A stretch of DNA of 64,000 bases from Phragmitibacter flavus (GCF_005780165.1 NZ_VAUV01000010.1:62001-126000), one strand, 5' to 3'; positions 30,313 through 37,183 are shown, counted from the stretch's first letter. A program made the numbers and translations. The notes: a model not told the origin generated them from the sequence alone.

Positions 30313-30873
30313 ATGCCTGTAACCCCTTCAGATTTGCTTGATGATGCATCTGCTTTGGCAGCTGAATCAACGTTGGCGCCTGCTTCTGAAGAAGTGACCA
30401 CACCCCTCTTGGGGGCGGCCCCGGTGTTGTTTCGTCCCAATGTGGCGGCCATCATCTTGAACATGGACAATGCCATGCTGGTCGCGCAGCGTTCAGGGAT
30501 GAAGACTTCCTGGCAATTCCCGCAAGGTGGAGTGGATACCGGCGAGACTTTGGAAGAAGCGCTCTATCGCGAAGTGGAAGAGGAAGTGGGTTTGAAACCC
30601 GAGTTGCTGCAGCTGCTGGACCGCAAAGGCGGCTATCGCTATGAATTTCCCAAGGGCCGATTGAAATATGGTGTCTACGGCGGGCAGGAGCAGGTGTATT
30701 ATTTGTGCCGGTTTCTCGGCAAGGATCGCGATGTGAATCTGGATCACAAGTGTCGCGAATTTGATCGCTGGCGCTGGTTGAAACCCGAAAAATTCGACAT
30801 GGAATGGGTGCCCAAGTTCAAGCGCCACGTGTATCAAAGGGTGTTCAAGGATTTTTTTGGGATTGAGAAGTGA
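30313..30873 (+). CDS. rppH: Nudix RNA pyrophosphohydrolase-like protein
   Basis: A 186-residue Nudix hydrolase. The Nudix box is complete: GGVDTGETLEEALYREV followed by EEEVGL. It opens with FRPNVAAIILNMDNAMLVAQR and has WQFPQGGV, as in RppH/NudH proteins that remove pyrophosphate from 5'-triphosphate RNA and so start mRNA decay. The ending RWRWLKPEKFDMEWVPKFK matches too. About 40 N-terminal residues rich in Ala, Ser and Asp precede the domain and are not part of the family. If the ATG at 30313 is right, this tail is disordered; a later start was not evident. Confidence 0.88.
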   Translation: MPVTPSDLLDDASALAAESTLAPASEEVTTPLLGAAPVLFRPNVAAIILNMDNAMLVAQRSGMKTSWQFPQGGVDTGETLEEALYREVEEEVGLKPELLQLLDRKGGYRYEFPKGRLKYGVYGGQEQVYYLCRFLGKDRDVNLDHKCREFDRWRWLKPEKFDMEWVPKFKRHVYQRVFKDFFGIEK

Positions 30874-30938: not shown

Positions 30939-31175
30939 TTCGGGAAGTCGCTTTCGGTGTCCGGGAGGAGGCGTTTAGTGTCCGGCTTGGCGCGTCGTGC
31001 AACCGGGAAGGCGCTTTCAGCGTCTAGGATGTCGCGTGCAGTGTCCGGAAAGGCGCGTGCAATTTCCGGCAAGGCAATTGAAGTGTTTTGGAAGGCACTT
31101 CAGGTGTCCAGAAAGGTCTGTGCAGCGTCCGGGAAGGCAAATACAGTGTTAGGGAAGGCGTGTGCGGTTTCCGGG
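30939..31175. repeat. Degenerate 21-bp tandem repeat, 11 copies plus partial
   Basis: Eleven consecutive 21-base units plus six further bases run from 30939 to 31175 with no insertion or deletion in the period. The approximate consensus is TCCGGGAAGGCGCGTGCAGTG over one unit (21 bases, given here in parts: TCCGGGAAGG then CGCGTGCAGTG). Copies differ from each other at several positions. The plus-strand frame from 30957 to 31292 reads the array as a 7-residue pattern like S-G-K-A-x-x-V, but frames on the minus strand are open as well, so I do not call a gene. The array lies just left of the integron cassettes. Confidence 0.9.
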
Positions 31176-31285
31176 ACCGGGGAGGCTGATCCGGATTCGC
31201 CAACTCAAGACGATCTCCCCTTGCTCGTGATCGATCCATTGCTGCCGTCCGATGGGGACCCCTATTGGAAAATTCTGTTATTTAT

Positions 31286-31404
31286 GGTGTAAAATAACAC
31301 CTCTATTCTCGCCTAAATCTCCAAATTTGAAGAATAACACCCGGAAATCGGTGTTATTTAACATGCCAAAACAGATCACCTCTCGAAAAACCTTCAAATT
31401 TGAA
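31286..31404. repeat. AT-rich block with inverted and direct short repeats
   Basis: The 9-mer AATAACACC occurs at 31293-31301 and 31333-31341, and its reverse complement GGTGTTATT at 31350-31358; the last two form a perfect 9-bp stem with an 8-base loop. The first copy follows GGTGT (31286-31290), giving a second weak hairpin. In addition CAAATTTGAAG occurs twice, at 31322-31332 and 31394-31404. The block is AT-rich unlike its neighbours and ends about 45 bases before the first cassette boundary. Role unknown; a terminator, regulatory or recombination site are possible. Confidence 0.75.
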
Positions 31405-31462
31405 GCATATAGGGTGATTCTATCCTTCAAAACGTTATATTAATCCTCTGTTCTGCCAAGAA

Positions 31463-31867
31463 ATGAAGACCGTTGCTTCCGCATGTGCGCTCAGCATAGT
31501 GATGCTTCTCCTCGGAGCATGCGGGCGCGAACACACTGATCGAGCGGAGATTAAGAGCGAGATCGAACTTCAGAGGAATCAAGGATGGGATTTCGTCGAG
31601 ATGGTAGGTGAAGCCCATTCAACTCCTGTGATGAGGGAGATTCGACATTCCGACGCCAGTGGATCTTTGACCGTTCACGCTGGGAACACTGGAGTGGACG
31701 GCTACGGAGATCGTTCGCAATCTTTTGATAAAACATTTAAGAAGGATGGATTCGATTATCTTGAGGTGAAGATCATGACGTCGCCTGCTGATGGCTACTG
31801 TCTCGTCTTCCAGAAGCCACGGGGGACGATCAACAATAGTGCTTCCACGCCACAGAAGAATAATTAA
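31463..31867 (+). CDS. Cassette 1: small lipoprotein of unknown function
   Basis: A 134-residue protein. MKTVASACALSIVMLLLGAC is a lipoprotein signal with lipobox LLGAC, so the mature protein should be anchored to a membrane. The rest is hydrophilic, with a predicted mixed alpha/beta pattern (RNQGWDFVEMVGE, GFDYLEVKIMTSPADGYCLVF) and no family that I recognise. The ATG lies seven bases after the R' box at 31450-31456, and the stop lies three bases before the attC R'' box, the tight fit usual for integron cassettes. Confidence 0.75.
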   Translation: MKTVASACALSIVMLLLGACGREHTDRAEIKSEIELQRNQGWDFVEMVGEAHSTPVMREIRHSDASGSLTVHAGNTGVDGYGDRSQSFDKTFKKDGFDYLEVKIMTSPADGYCLVFQKPRGTINNSASTPQKNN

Positions 31868-31870
31868 GAT

Positions 31871-31999
31871 GCAGAACAAGCCGAGACACAGCAACCCCTA
31901 TCAGCCGCCCTGTTTACATGCTCTCCCTTATTTTCAACCTCAACCCCGTGATCGATGTGCGCCCTCGCTGATAGGGGTGCGTGCTCTTTGACGTTCGGC
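31871..31999 (+). other. attC-like recombination site 1
   Basis: R'' GCAGAAC (31871-31877) and R' GTTCGGC (31993-31999) bound a 129-base site. The left arm 31883-31905 pairs with the right arm 31967-31986 along 20 base pairs once three A residues of the left arm are left unpaired. These bulges match the extrahelical bases that let IntI choose the strand. The right end CTCTTTGACGTT is shared with site 2. Confidence 0.85.
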
Positions 32000-32036
32000 A
32001 TCGTCACGTTTTTCTTCAATCCACACCAATACAACC

Positions 32037-32537
32037 ATGAAAAAACTCTGCGTTATCATCACGCTCCTATGTGGTGCAAACCTGCTGCTTGCGGATTCGC
32101 CTTTCCAACGCGAGTTAAAGCAGTTGCATGAGCAGCACGAAAAGGCAGTGGCAGCAGCCGTAGATCCAGTCAATCGTCGTCATCAGGCTGCACTCGAGCA
32201 GTTGCTACGGCGTGCAACTCAAAGCAACGATCTTCAAACTGCCGTCCAGATTCAAGAAGCGCTGGCTGCCCTCGGCGTCGTTCAAGGTATGGACGCCGGG
32301 AGCGTCATCGGCAAATGGACATTCCGCCCCGCATCACGGCCCCCTGTCGACCGCGAGTTGAAACCAGATGGGACCGTAACCAAGGAGGGAGGAGGAACAG
32401 GAACATGGAAAATCGAGGGCAACACTCTGAAAATCCGATACCCTGACGGCTCGACCGATTTCAAGCTTCCAGTTCGCAATGGAAAACTGATAGGGCGCGG
32501 ACACAGTGGTGACAAAATCATTGCTGAGCGCAAATAG
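32037..32537 (+). CDS. Cassette 2: secreted protein of unknown function
   Basis: A 166-residue protein with a signal peptide (MKKLCVIITLLCGANLLLAD). A helical segment rich in Glu, Gln and Ala (residues 22-85, FQRELKQLHEQHEKAV) is followed by a small beta-rich domain: VIGKWTFRPASR, GTVTKEGGGTGTWKIEG, LKIRYPDGSTDFKLP. The second half resembles lipocalin-like or DUF-type domains appended to secreted Verrucomicrobia proteins; no function is assigned. The gene fills its cassette between attC sites 1 and 2. Confidence 0.72.
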   Translation: MKKLCVIITLLCGANLLLADSPFQRELKQLHEQHEKAVAAAVDPVNRRHQAALEQLLRRATQSNDLQTAVQIQEALAALGVVQGMDAGSVIGKWTFRPASRPPVDRELKPDGTVTKEGGGTGTWKIEGNTLKIRYPDGSTDFKLPVRNGKLIGRGHSGDKIIAERK

Positions 32538-32548
32538 CTCCACCACAA

Positions 32549-32683
32549 CGCCAACAAGGCGCGACATGACAACCCCTACCAGCCGTTCTGCTAAGATGCT
32601 TTTCAGCCACTACAACCTCAACCCCGCGTTCGACGCGCGCCGCCGCTGGTAGGGGTGCGTGCTCTTTGACCTTGACGTTCGCC
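32549..32683 (+). other. attC-like recombination site 2
   Basis: R'' CGCCAAC (32549-32555) and R' GTTCGCC (32677-32683) bound 135 bases. ACCCCTACCAGC (32572-32583) pairs perfectly with GCTGGTAGGGGT (32645-32656), and the stem continues outward with bulged A residues. The stretch AGGGGTGCGTGCTCTTTGAC is identical to site 1, so both sites belong to one attC subfamily. The cassette-2 R'' lacks one base relative to its GTTCGGC start. Confidence 0.82.
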
Positions 32684-32703
32684 TAGCTAACAGCGCCACT
32701 CGT

Positions 32704-33198
32704 ATGTTTGTCTTATACTCAGTTGCTGGAGTTGTTGCTGCCTTGATTGGCTACGTTGTCTGGATTGAGATCAGGGCTCAGCGCATGTGGGTCATATCGA
32801 TCCACACCTATGAAGGATTCCCGTTGCTGCTTCGTCATATTGATCGATTGCCATTTCCTTCTCGCCGCAAGGAGCTTCCAACGTTGTCCATCATAACTCA
32901 CACGTTCTCAGAGCGATCACCCGACGAACTTCCTGAACCCGCATACAATGACGATCTGGCGGAGTTGGACTTGGCCATGATCACAGTCATGCGAGACCGC
33001 CGAATCGGTTCGCCCGTGCTGATTGAGACGTTCGGAGGAAAGTGCATTTACTATCACTACGTTGTTGATCGCCACAGCGCAAAGCGACAATTCCAGAAAG
33101 CTAGACTTCTCTTTCCAGATGAGATGATTGATTTTGACACCCGGGAGGATCCCGAATGGGGTTTCATTGATCGCTATGCGAAGAACTACTTTCCATAG
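32704..33198 (+). CDS. Cassette 3: membrane-anchored protein, possibly DUF695-like
   Basis: A 164-residue protein with one N-terminal membrane segment (MFVLYSVAGVVAALIGYVVW) and a soluble domain. GSPVLIETFGGKCIYYHYVV and DPEWGFIDRYAKNYF recall the end of DUF695 domains, but the match is by eye only. The frame could start with GTG 32659, which lies inside attC site 2 upstream of the R' box; ATG 32704 lies inside the cassette and opens directly with the membrane segment, so I prefer it. Confidence 0.7.
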   Translation: MFVLYSVAGVVAALIGYVVWIEIRAQRMWVISIHTYEGFPLLLRHIDRLPFPSRRKELPTLSIITHTFSERSPDELPEPAYNDDLAELDLAMITVMRDRRIGSPVLIETFGGKCIYYHYVVDRHSAKRQFQKARLLFPDEMIDFDTREDPEWGFIDRYAKNYFP

Positions 33199-33245
33199 CA
33201 GATTGTCTAGAGCATGACTATTGAGCAGACCATTGGCCAGACAAA

Positions 33246-33371
33246 GGCGAATAAGGCGCGGCTGGACAACCGCTGGGGCTGCTATGTTGGCCATGCTTTC
33301 CATAACTTTAGCCCTCCTGCCGTCTCCACGCTCACCCCCGCTCCAGCGGTGCCATCGCTTAGAGGTTCGAC
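33246..33371 (+). other. attC-like recombination site 3
   Basis: R'' GGCGAAT (33246-33252) and R' GTTCGAC (33365-33371) bound 126 bases. TGGACAACCGCTGGGGC (33263-33279) pairs with the segment from 33340 to 33354 (GCTCCAGCGGTGCCA) with one G-A mismatch and two unpaired A residues on the left arm. The internal sequence differs from sites 1 and 2, as expected for attC sites of different origin. Confidence 0.82.
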
Positions 33372-33377
33372 AAGACA

Positions 33378-34559
33378 ATGAAGAGTTCGCGCTACATGCT
33401 ACCAATCGTTGCGTTGGCGCTTTTTCCATCTGCCGCATCGGCCAATGCGGGAACACCCCTAATGTGGGCATCCATGCTTCACTTGGCGATCGGGAATGCC
33501 ATTATTGGAATCCTTGAGGGATTGTTACTCGCATGGATGTTTAAGTGCTCAAAGCGGAAGGCGATTTTGACCCTGATTGTGGCAAATTACGCATCTGCCT
33601 GGGCTGGAGGTTTATTCGTTGTCGGTTACTTGGCCGCCCTGCCGGACATTACGATTCATACACTCCAGTATTGGTTTCTGGTTTTCGTTATTGTTGCTTT
33701 TATCGTCACGCTCCTGATTGAACTCCCCTTCTTCTGGTTCGCTCTGCGTCCACAAAATTATTCTTGGCGAAGAGCCTTAGTTGCAACCCCAGTGATCCAT
33801 GGGATCAGTTACGTGTTGCTTTTTGGCTGGTATTGGATGGCGAGTGGAACTTCGATGATCACTAGACTCGAAGTAGTGCCAATGGATGAGATGGCGATTT
33901 CGGAGCCTCATTTACTCTACTTCATATCCCGAGAAGGCAATCAGGTTTTACGCATGGATATCGGTGATTCTAGTGCCCCTCAGCCTATTTCAGAATTAAC
34001 AGCGCATCACCGGAATGATCGTCTCTTCGTTCGTCCACGTGATGAATCAGGTTTTGACCTTTTCGTTTACCTCGATTCGGAGGATGGGGGCGCTGAGACA
34101 GAATCACGGATTTTGGAGGACTTTTCAGAGCAAGCCCCTGTTGAGTGGCGCATTGCTGAAGGACATTCTGAAAAGGCCGAGGGTTCGTGGTTCAACTTTG
34201 GCCCGGTTCCCGCCATCGGCCCACAATCCAACTGGGCGTTCCGAACCGGTTTTTGGCCGACCGAGGGAATAAGCGGAAAGAACGAGAAGACAGGGGAAGA
34301 GGTGCACTACGCCCTTGAGCTTCCGTTTGCAGCTTGGCCAGTGCGCAACGCTACCCAAATTGCAGGCGATTACGTTGTTACACAGCTAGGCGACGATCAG
34401 ATTTGCTTGATGCATTTGGAATCTGGAAGAATTGCCCTCTTAGCCCGAGGCAAGGGGCCAATCGTTGCAAAACCACAAACGTCGAACAAGGCAGTCGACT
34501 CAACGGCTACCCGCGTCGCGCCTCCTGCAGAGCAGGAGACGCACCACGGGCAGCCGTGA
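33378..34559 (+). CDS. Cassette 4: multi-pass membrane protein with C-terminal soluble domain
   Basis: A 393-residue protein with an N-terminal signal-like segment and four or five hydrophobic helices up to about residue 165 (AIGNAIIGILEGLLLAWMF, FLVFVIVAFIVTLLIELPF, ISYVLLFGWYWMASG). A soluble domain of about 220 residues follows and may be propeller-like (HLLYFISREGNQVLRMD, FDLFVYLDSEDGGAE). No family is recognised. The last 25 residues or so are encoded inside attC site 4, so the tail depends on the recombination site and may not be native to the protein. Large for a cassette gene. Confidence 0.72.
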   Translation: MKSSRYMLPIVALALFPSAASANAGTPLMWASMLHLAIGNAIIGILEGLLLAWMFKCSKRKAILTLIVANYASAWAGGLFVVGYLAALPDITIHTLQYWFLVFVIVAFIVTLLIELPFFWFALRPQNYSWRRALVATPVIHGISYVLLFGWYWMASGTSMITRLEVVPMDEMAISEPHLLYFISREGNQVLRMDIGDSSAPQPISELTAHHRNDRLFVRPRDESGFDLFVYLDSEDGGAETESRILEDFSEQAPVEWRIAEGHSEKAEGSWFNFGPVPAIGPQSNWAFRTGFWPTEGISGKNEKTGEEVHYALELPFAAWPVRNATQIAGDYVVTQLGDDQICLMHLESGRIALLARGKGPIVAKPQTSNKAVDSTATRVAPPAEQETHHGQP

Positions 34560-34579
34560 GTCACCTTTGGACGTTGACA
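34481..34579 (+). other. attC-like recombination site 4
   Basis: R'' GTCGAAC (34481-34487) is the exact complement of this cassette's start GTTCGAC at 33365. The R' box is GTTGACA (34573-34579), preceded by CTTTGGAC. GACTCAACGGCT pairs with AGCCGTGAGTC with one unpaired A, and TCCTGC/GCAGGA-type inner pairing continues the stem. At 99 bases it is shorter than sites 1-3. The stop codon of the cassette gene lies inside it at 34557-34559. Confidence 0.83.
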
Positions 34580-34593
34580 TCGCACTTCACATC

Positions 34594-34953
34594 GTGGTTG
34601 GCCTCGGGTGTTTCATATTCTTTTGGCTCGCCAGCCATAGCGCTTCCGAGAGGGATGTTTGGCCGCAGCTGATTGCAGTAGGTCTTGGATGTGCGATCAC
34701 CGCCTTTGTGATTTCGTTTCCAGGCCGAAGGCTGATCTGCTCGAGCTGCCCCAAGTCAATGGCGGCCTCGGCATTTTCCCTTGGCTTCATCTTCAGCACA
34801 TTGATCTCCATACTCAGTTGGTTTGACGATGACGGATTGTGGAAGGTCCCAGCGTTTTGGTTTCCGATCACAATGGCTGTTTTTGCTCTATCATATTGGG
34901 GGAGCACGGTCGGTTCCATAGAACTTTCACGACGCGAACGAAACAAGTCTTGA
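34594..34953 (+). CDS. Cassette 5: small membrane protein
   Basis: About 119 residues, mostly hydrophobic, with three or four membrane helices (VVGLGCFIFFWLASHS, LIAVGLGCAITAFVISF, AASAFSLGFIFSTLISIL, FWFPITMAVFALSYW). The frame is open back into attC site 4; GTG 34594 is the first start codon inside the cassette after the R' box. It ends in a basic tail (ELSRRERNKS). No family recognised. The following DNA lacks an intact attC, so this cassette seems fixed or its distal site decayed. Confidence 0.6.
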   Translation: MVGLGCFIFFWLASHSASERDVWPQLIAVGLGCAITAFVISFPGRRLICSSCPKSMAASAFSLGFIFSTLISILSWFDDDGLWKVPAFWFPITMAVFALSYWGSTVGSIELSRRERNKS

Positions 34954-35302
34954 GGTGATCCGCTTGACTACCGGCTAGACGTTCAAGCACGTCTATCCAT
35001 CCGCTCTTTCCCGCCAGATTCTCAAACACACTAAAGTCATCTCCTTCGATCCAGACTCCAATGCTCGACTTCCGCTCGGATGGCAAATCGGCATCGCCTC
35101 CGCCCGCTTGAATTTGGGACGCGCGCAGCGCATCCCTACCGTTTGTTTTCGAAAGAGCGGCAGAGGTGGGCAGAGACTGTGTTTTTGGTTCAAGGTGCGC
35201 CCTCATCGCCGTGATGGTTTGCAAATGATGAAGAGGACCCGAGCAGGTGCCCCCCTTTAAGCGATGGGGTAGAGCTTGCGAGTTTAGGATGATTTCGCTT
35301 GC
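34954..35302. other. Region right of the cassette array; REP-like palindrome
   Basis: No convincing gene in about 350 bases. GACGTTCAAGC at 34978-34988 looks like an isolated R' half of a decayed attC. GGGACGCGCGCAGCGCATCCC at 35116-35136 is an imperfect palindrome of REP type. A minus-strand frame (about 34930-35180) reads DADLPSERKSSIGVWIEGDD and FENLAGKSGWIDVLERLAG, unusually protein-like for a shadow, and may be a gene fragment. Confidence 0.5.
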
Positions 35303-37183
35303 ATGGGGTGGGGGTTGGATGTTCCGCTTGGGATTAAGAAGATGAACTTGCGGCGGCAACTCCAGGACATTGGTTCGATGGGAACAAGTTTATGGGGTCA
35401 TGCTCGCGATTTTCTGGCGACCAATCAGATTGAGCCGCTGATGCTGCCGCGCCATTTGCGGGGCTACCGGAAGGCGGATTTGAAAGCGGATTCGCGGGCG
35501 GGATTGACGACGGCGCTGCTGGCGTTTCCACAGGCGATGGCCTTTGCAGTGGTGGCGGGGTTGCCGCTGGTTTATGGGATCACCTGTTCGGCGGTGGCGG
35601 CGCTGGTGGCACCTTTGTTCAGCAGTTCGCGGCACACGATCCTGGGGCCAACGAATGCGACGGCGTTCATGATTTTCTCGTTCTTTGCGGCCAATCCGAG
35701 GATGGAGCCGGTGGAGCAGATGCCGATGCTGGTGTTTTTGGTGGGGGTGTTGCTGATGCTGGGATCGGTGTTGAGGGTCGCGGATCTGGCGCAATACATC
35801 AGTCGGACGGTGATGGTGGCTTACATCACCGGGGCGGCGGTGCAGATGATGGTGAATCAGTTGGTGCCGGCTTTGGGGGTGCAGATGGGGGATGGGCTGG
35901 CGCCTCGCACTTTCCTTGGGACGCTTTATCGGGTGGTGACAGAGATTCCGGCACTGAATTGGGCGAGTTTGTTGCTGACAGTGTTTTCGGTGGCGGGGTA
36001 TTTTGGATTGAAGCGGTTGCGTCCGAACTGGCCACGTTTTGCGATGGTGCTGGTGGCGTCGTCTTTGCTGGGGCTGTTGTTGAGCCGGCTGCATGCGCCG
36101 GTGGCGACTTTTTCAGAAGGGGTTTTTGATTGGGGCGACATGATTCCGCCGTTTCCGGATTTTACTTCGTGGAATGCGGCGGCGCAGTTCAGTCAGTTGT
36201 TTGGGGTGGCGGTGGCGGTGGCGTTTGTGTCGATGCTGGAAAGCAATGCGATGGCCAAGTCCCTGGCGTCGAGGGCAAACTACCGCGTGGATGGCAATCA
36301 GGACATGTTCAGTCTGGGGGCGTCGAATCTCGCGTGTGCTTATTTGAGTGGAATGCCGGCCAGCAATTCGCTGACACGGTCGGCTTTGAATTATGAGAGC
36401 GGAGCGAGGACGCCGATGTCGAGCATGATCAGTGGCGCGCTTTGTCTGGTTGGGGCGTTGGTGTTGGGACCGTTTATTCAATATGTGCCCAAGTCGGTGC
36501 TGGCGGCGTTGGTGATTTGTGTGGCGCTGTCGTTGATCAGCAAGCGCCAAATCCGGATTTGCATGCGGTCGACGAAGTCGGATGCGGTGGTGTTTGTGGT
36601 GACGTTTGCAGCGACGTTGATGGTGCCGTTGCATGTGGCGATTTTTACGGGCATTGGGTTGTCGGTGATGTTGTATATCCGCAAGGCGAGTCAGCCTTCG
36701 CTGGTGGAGTATACTTTCAATCAGGAAGGCAATCTGGCGGAGCTGGAGAATGCGGACCGGCAGCATCCATCGATCTCGATTGTGCATGTGGAGGGCGATT
36801 TGTTTTTTGGGGCGGCGGAGTTGTTCCGGACGCAGATTCAAAGGACGTGTTCCGATCCCAATCTGCGGATCATCATTTTGAGGCTGAAAAACGCGAGGCA
36901 TCTCGACGCCACCAGCGTCATGGCGTTGGAGGAGTTGATCAAAGTGATGCGGTCGAATGGACGGGACCTGATCGTGAGTGGCGCGATGAAGGATGTCTAC
37001 CGGGTGTTGCGGGATTCGGGGTTGATCGAGGTTCTAGGACGCGACAACATCTTCATGGGCAGCGCGGCCAATCCAAACATCTCAACCCGCAATGCGTTGA
37101 AGCGGGCGCAGGAAATTCTTGGGGTTAAAGAGGCAAACGTGCAGATCTACTACGATCCGCGGCATCAGGCGACGAAGGGCTAA
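35303..37183 (+). CDS. SulP family anion transporter with STAS domain
   Basis: Inner-membrane anion permease of 626 residues (SLC26/SulP). About a dozen hydrophobic helices span residues 60-460; the family signature region reads FPQAMAFAVVAGLPLVYGI, and SLASRANYRVDGNQDMFSLG with ACAYLSGMPASNSLTRSALN is the conserved core. Residues 500-610 are a cytoplasmic STAS domain (ISIVHVEGDLFFGAAELF, LRLKNARHLDATSVMALEEL). Substrates in this family include sulfate and bicarbonate; a bicarbonate role would suit the downstream carboxylase but that is only inference. ATG 35342 (MNLRRQLQD) is an alternative start. Confidence 0.9.
   Translation: MGWGLDVPLGIKKMNLRRQLQDIGSMGTSLWGHARDFLATNQIEPLMLPRHLRGYRKADLKADSRAGLTTALLAFPQAMAFAVVAGLPLVYGITCSAVAALVAPLFSSSRHTILGPTNATAFMIFSFFAANPRMEPVEQMPMLVFLVGVLLMLGSVLRVADLAQYISRTVMVAYITGAAVQMMVNQLVPALGVQMGDGLAPRTFLGTLYRVVTEIPALNWASLLLTVFSVAGYFGLKRLRPNWPRFAMVLVASSLLGLLLSRLHAPVATFSEGVFDWGDMIPPFPDFTSWNAAAQFSQLFGVAVAVAFVSMLESNAMAKSLASRANYRVDGNQDMFSLGASNLACAYLSGMPASNSLTRSALNYESGARTPMSSMISGALCLVGALVLGPFIQYVPKSVLAALVICVALSLISKRQIRICMRSTKSDAVVFVVTFAATLMVPLHVAIFTGIGLSVMLYIRKASQPSLVEYTFNQEGNLAELENADRQHPSISIVHVEGDLFFGAAELFRTQIQRTCSDPNLRIIILRLKNARHLDATSVMALEELIKVMRSNGRDLIVSGAMKDVYRVLRDSGLIEVLGRDNIFMGSAANPNISTRNALKRAQEILGVKEANVQIYYDPRHQATKG

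Follow-up and report, generated by a model that had tools for sequence, protein, structure and literature searches.

How does an array of integron cassettes come to lie in a genome in which no integron integrase (IntI) is found? This question is raised by a stretch of 64,000 nucleotides from Phragmitibacter flavus (GCF_005780165.1 NZ_VAUV01000010.1:62001-126000), here called the window, which is positions 62001-126000 of contig C10 in our draft genome G000 (5.9 Mb, 44 contigs, completeness 99.89%). A reading made from the sequence alone had placed in it, from position 31450 to 34953, a cluster of integron attC sites and cassettes without an integrase (CALIN), captured or relic, in a probable Verrucomicrobiota genome. 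The host belongs to the family Verrucomicrobiaceae, which includes the genomes of Verrucomicrobium sp. BvORR034 and BvORR106, and the family comparisons below cover 68 genomes for the IntI count and 67 for the attC count and the SulP permease gene. We find that the hairpins of the window are attC sites, and that the array is an integron array (an attI-like site with four to five cassettes) that lacks its integrase, one of about 12 such loci in a genome in which the integron platforms probably multiplied and the integrase gene, intI, was later lost.

The window hairpins are attC sites

Four imperfect hairpins lie on the plus strand of the window, each with a stem bounded by R'' and R' boxes (Table 1), and the sequence-only reading had described them correctly, down to the position of the bulges: almost all extrahelical bases are on the left (R''/L'') arm, with a few gaps on the opposite arm in site 2. 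This architecture agrees position for position with that of attC sites that adjoin genuine intI genes in relatives from the family. Sites 1 and 2 are like one attC beside the intI of G019 (84% mean column identity for site 1 in a three-way alignment with site 2 and that attC), and site 3 very closely resembles an attC from the array next to the intI of G006. Site 2 carries an insertion of 6 nt ahead of R' and has a degenerate R''.

Two covariance models support this assignment. The first (R1), for which the seed was only three in-register attC sites of one relative (G006), matches window sites 3, 1 and 2 at 67, 37 and 26 bits. The second (R2) was made from 14 attC sites in intI-associated arrays of relatives, with the window sequence excluded; across the 64 kb of the window it matches sites 3, 1, 2 and 4 at 87.4, 82.0, 60.2 and 36.1 bits, and the next match scores 12.1 bits. 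Thus, all four sites are found by the covariance-model check that the sequence-only reading had proposed. In the R2 alignment, 93.6% of the cells are paired, and two-sided changes occur in 20 of 26 pairs (compared to 10.3 in shuffles), although these pairing and covariation counts lean towards structure because the alignment was itself fitted to structure. Fold energy favors the bottom strand over the top strand at sites 2 and 4 (-33.7 versus -25.3 kcal/mol at site 4), and is about equal for the two strands at sites 1 and 3. Rfam holds no fitting attC family, RNAalifold found no structure in MAFFT alignments of attC sites of mixed length (which were out of register), and an in-house palindrome scanner gave an excess of false matches and was used only to collect candidates.

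The boxes themselves bear on the same point, since the start (R') and the end (R'') of a cassette are complementary because cassettes circularise. In the window, this complementarity is 7/7 for cassette 1 (GTTCTGC/GCAGAAC), 6/7 for cassette 3 and 7/7 for cassette 4, the three for which it had been noted from the sequence, and 4/7 for cassette 2, which had been omitted. The relationship extends to the whole genome: of 53 consecutive attC pairs, 28 match perfectly (7/7), whereas 10,000 shuffles of the R' boxes gave 2.9 perfect pairs on average and at most 10. The two boxes within a single site match each other at the four variable positions in only 7 of 75 sites, which bears out the earlier observation that they do not correspond in this way. 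Imperfect intergenic hairpins can mimic terminators, but the covariance matches, the complementarity per cassette and the near-matches beside intI in relatives already refute the idea that these hairpins are ordinary terminators or repeats, and we consider its probability negligible.

The array starts at an attI-like leader that recurs in the genome

A search of the genome with R2 yielded about 75 attC sites that score at least 20 bits; they form 12 loci, spread over 10 contigs (Table 1). The attC count is the highest among the 67 family genomes (31 compared to 18 for the next, both at one uniform and stricter setting), and many attC sites of the genome are degraded. The CALIN label was therefore correct but incomplete, all the more since the sequence-only reading had overlooked an attI-like leader just left of 31450, the position at which it began the array and which coincides with the G of the first R' box.

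The leader was found by aligning the start points of the arrays. One type, type A, is present in the genome in 10 copies by blastn and 12-13 by profile. It heads nine attC arrays (the window array, one each on C3, C7, C14 and C31, and two each on C8 and C23), and three decayed solo copies have no attC nearby (Table 1). Type A stands directly upstream of the first cassette and is conserved up to the crossover: over the last 20 nt ahead of G|TT, the copies have a mean pairwise identity of 0.78, which drops to 0.40 over the next 20 nt and to ~0.25 further on. A leader that is kept up to G|TT and unrelated beyond it, where different cassettes follow, behaves as an attI does. A related leader, type B, is found at the start of four arrays, three of them on C1 and the fourth on C4, so that the two types together head 13 arrays. 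The end of type B, TGCAGACTATCTGTATG|TT, is identical to that of the G067 attI, which is separated by ~225 bp from the beginning of a complete intI. Moreover, six relatives that bear intI have a box, ATA[AG]NGCTGNTGA, at 45-47 nt before G|TT, and type A has ATAGGGTGAT (an ATA-GG-TGAT box) at the corresponding place. From these sequence features, we infer that the type A leader works as an attI.

Several smaller features surround the leaders and arrays. Palindromes lie within the window leader at 31286-31405 (AATAACACC..GGTGTTATT, CTTCAAATTTGAAG), and these could be binding sites for a regulator or for IntI, or part of a promoter. A GC-rich tandem repeat (31003-31176; ~21-bp unit, 8.3 copies, CCGGGAAGGCACGTGCAGTGT) lies between the upstream Nudix gene and the leader; the leader on C31 (L061) follows a similar stretch, and ahead of the type B leader on C4 (L058) there is another GC-rich repeat. 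An array of 12 attC sites lies directly 3' of rpoC (L056; C8:241-246 kb).

An intI stub is present, but no integrase gene was found

We searched for the integrase with two profiles. TIGR02249 at E ≤ 0.001 matches Xer-type proteins in 14 of 14 control genomes, so we counted only matches that exceed its cut-off or that extend across the IntI-specific insert. By this standard, 24 of 68 family genomes have IntI over the TIGR02249 cut-off, and nothing in the P. flavus genome exceeds it. A 13-member profile of family IntI proteins matched only pieces of Xer, phage-type and IS91-associated recombinases in this genome, none of which spans the insert. Thus, the statement that no IntI gene lies in the window extends, by both searches, to the genome as a whole. 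The leader pattern occurs nowhere in the collection of genome contigs or in viral contigs, and the array has no match in plasmids.

The best TIGR02249 match, C23:38020-38880, adjoins an attC array and might be read as a divergent IntI; we rejected this reading because the match is without the IntI-specific insert and adjoins a gene read as an IS91-type transposase. The recombinase of locus L053 on C23 is the nearest match to the IntI profile in the genome, and is not IntI. In this locus (L053:3835-5911), an IS91-type transposase and a tyrosine recombinase are inserted between the attI-like leader and the remaining cassette array.

What is left of intI is clearest at a type A leader on C8, where a frame of ~30 codons (L056:10415-10492) corresponds to the first ~26 codons of intI, with 58% identity over 26 aa to the IntI N-terminus of G067 (E=3e-8). 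This stub is divergent from the array and lies ~235 bp from the crossover, compared to 225 bp in G067. The leader copy on C3 shares the stub stretch as DNA (~84% over 278 bp, leader included). Genome G064 (Verrucomicrobium sp. BvORR034; L171:5319-5744) has a type B attI, four attC sites and an intI of only ~66 N-terminal codons, and appears to illustrate a similar decay, in which attI and attC are kept and intI is cut short.

Two loci are empty in relatives

The array lies between two host genes, encoding a Nudix hydrolase and a SulP permease (Table 1), the latter present in 63 of 67 family genomes. The gap between these genes is 31-556 bp in five relatives from two genera and 4430 bp here. 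Similarly, at a second locus, between ValS and a squalene-hopene-cyclase-like gene (SHC), the distance is 83-530 bp in the same five relatives and 2661 bp here. Since the flanks are nearly adjacent in relatives, this lineage probably acquired the window locus in the form of a leader with cassettes. A gene order conserved in relatives without attC, which would have counted against the sequence-only reading, is not what we observed, as the relatives have the flanking genes almost next to each other. The flanks at rpoC, transaldolase and UvrA are uninformative about empty sites, since relatives do not have the same gene pairs.

A probable origin by multiplication of attI platforms and loss of intI

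We propose the following course of events for these arrays. The lineage would formerly have had integron platforms (intI, attI and cassettes) at one or more places. The 5' end that bears attI would then have multiplied, giving the 13 copies that head arrays and the three decayed solo copies, and IntI would have inserted cassettes at each attI copy by attC x attI recombination at G|TT. Deletion of intI would have come after that, so that one array retains a short 5' stub and another a weak, probable one; both this late loss and the order of the other events are what the present arrangement suggests to us. Without IntI the arrays would be fixed, although the better-preserved attC sites could still move if an integrase were supplied in trans. 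Of the two origins that had been offered for the window array, the relic, in the sense of an array that lost its integrase, fits better than capture at a random site, because the array is one of twelve loci and has an attI-like start of its own.

Several observations weigh against this origin. In a 44-contig draft, an intI could have been missed, either between contigs or on a plasmid that was lost. A clear intI stub is present at one array only, with a weak one at a second, and none was found at the window array. The best match to type A in the other 66 family genomes is at most 18.8 bits, and no homologue stands beside an intact intI. No leader can be recognised at the C6 locus or at the second of the C4 loci. 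Finally, the relatives with empty sites belong to other genera, so that loss in them is possible.

We considered three other explanations of the dispersed arrays. An integrase that acts in trans, encoded in an assembly gap, on a missing plasmid or on mobile elements, might still serve them all, in which case they would form one distributed integron with many attI platforms. The perfect box complementarity of 28 of 53 cassettes and the open frames of the window would agree with continued service of this kind, an assembly in 44 contigs can miss a gene, and functional IntI can mobilise CALIN cassettes in trans, as stated in PMC12444791. We nevertheless find it unlikely, given a genome that is 99.89% complete, two profile searches without IntI, intI stubs that point to loss, many degraded attC sites, and no plasmid or viral record that holds the array or the leader. 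Still less probable is that the leader is an unrelated dispersed repeat, such as a promoter or a miniature inverted-repeat transposable element, that happened to be a hot spot for cassette insertion. Type A does occur in this genome only, in 12-13 copies of which three are without cassettes, and it is rich in palindromes; against this, type B has a homologue in the attI that adjoins intI in G067, one type A copy has an intI stub at the expected spacing, and the ATA-GG-TGAT box of type A is placed like the attI box of six relatives.

Insertion of cassettes off target, at genomic attG sites, could have made ordinary CALINs at unrelated places. Such insertion is established (Loot et al. 2024, as cited in PMC12901181), the window and ValS-SHC loci are both insertions relative to relatives, and the C6 and second C4 loci, having no leader, are places where it may apply. 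As an account of the arrays in general, it is very improbable: attG sites would have little in common outside the core, whereas 13 arrays start at two conserved leader types, which can reach 190 bp or more and stop precisely at G|TT. An origin by multiplied platforms with later loss of intI is thus the one that we prefer. A bolder version of it, which we put forward only tentatively, is that the attI platforms were non-autonomous repeats that seeded new arrays, a distributed integron served by a single integrase in trans that is now lost or outside the assembly. If this is true, CALINs could arise through a distributed integron as well as by attG insertion and by simple decay in place.

Relation to known integrons and CALINs

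The window array shares with the CALINs of IntegronFinder at least two attC sites, one cassette orientation, and the lack of an integrase nearby or in the genome; it is not a complete integron, in which intI is present, as only stubs were found. CALINs are defined by attC sites kept without intI and have on average almost 6 attC sites (PMC9024848), compared to ~75 attC sites in 12 loci here, with 13 arrays that begin at an attI-like site. A complete counterpart is the sedentary chromosomal integron of Verrucomicrobiaceae (G067, L021), which resembles our arrays in its attC subtypes, in the 3' end of its attI (type B), and in the spacing of the divergent intI and attI, but which has intI.

Dispersed or integrase-free arrays have been described elsewhere. 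In the Treponema phagedenis integron remnant, attC sites and cassettes likewise outlasted intI, but neither multiplied attI sites nor dispersed arrays are reported in the accessible part of that account (PMC3607928). Xanthomonas has dispersed CALINs at several positions per genus, often with the integrase lost; the part of the source available to us reports no shared attI-like leader, and describes CALIN positions that recur across species, whereas two loci here are empty in relatives (PMC12444791). Insertion at attG (Loot et al. 2024, as presented in citing papers) also places cassettes away from intI, but here the left junctions share a long conserved leader. Thus, loss of intI with retention of attC is already known, and we found no earlier description of an integrase-free genome in which many arrays are headed by attI. 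Since our coverage of the open literature was partial, this means not found rather than proved absent.

The origin of CALINs is debated between decay of integrons and off-target insertion of cassettes. With 13 integrase-free arrays headed by attI-like sites, at least two loci that are empty in relatives, and an intI stub, a route of CALIN formation becomes testable in one organism. The multiple attI-like sites also call into question the assumption, used as a working rule, that an integron has a single attI, and the attC and attI models specific to Verrucomicrobiaceae can now be used to find more arrays.

Cassettes and flanking genes

Table 1. Features of the window array and its flanks, with related loci elsewhere in the genome (window positions unless a contig or locus is named)
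Feature	Position	Strand	Remarks
Nudix hydrolase, host gene, left flank	30313..30873	+	PF00293
attI-like leader, type A	31262..31452	+	~190 bp; recombination point G31450|T31451
Cassette 1	31451..31993	+	Open reading frame (ORF) 31463-31867, 134 aa, lipoprotein-like signal sequence
attC site 1	31871..31999	+	R'' GCAGAAC, R' GTTCGGC; R2 82.0 bits
Cassette 2	31994..32677	+	ORF 32037-32537, 166 aa, signal peptide, weak lipocalin-like domain
attC site 2	32549..32683	+	R'' CGCCAAC, R' GTTCGCC; somewhat degraded; R2 60.2 bits
Cassette 3	32678..33365	+	ORF 32704-33198, 164 aa
attC site 3	33246..33371	+	R'' GGCGAAT, R' GTTCGAC; R2 87.4 bits, R1 67.4 bits
Cassette 4	33366..34573	+	ORF 33378-34559, 393 aa membrane protein
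attC site 4	34481..34579	+	Short type; R'' GTCGAAC, R' GTTGACA; R2 36.1 bits, E=6.9e-8
Presumed last (fifth) cassette	34574..34953	+	ORF end 34953; TTG start near 34567 likely; directly after site 4
SulP permease, host gene, right flank	35303..37183	+	PF00916 and STAS; true start probably ~35345
Decayed solo type A copies, no attC nearby	C3:27627 (L128:5604-5760), C7:214538 (L160), C9:259007 (L161)		
attC loci of the genome	C1, C3, C4 (two), C6, C7, C8 (two), C10, C14, C23, C31		Found by R2

The five same-strand genes that had been noted among the repeats are all present, and all five ORFs are open. None of them exceeds the cut-off for a curated family and none fits a defence model. The cassette 1 ORF has no match in Pfam or PADLOC. 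The cassette 2 ORF matches Pfam Lipocalin_4 just under the cut-off (E=5.5e-4), with weak matches among 337 other genomes of the phylum, and cassette 3 has a weak match to DUF695, also under the cut-off (E=0.0035). Cassettes 1, 3 and 5 have no homologue among these 337 genomes. The cassette 4 protein has homologues at 36-64% identity in ~10 other Verrucomicrobiota genomes, near which no attC sites were detected.

R2 detected no attC in the window 3' of the fifth gene, and the attC of this cassette is presumably lost or unrecognised. At 34935-34986, a stretch that scores too weakly for the model, with the end GACGTTCAAGC, is a possible remnant of a fifth attC.

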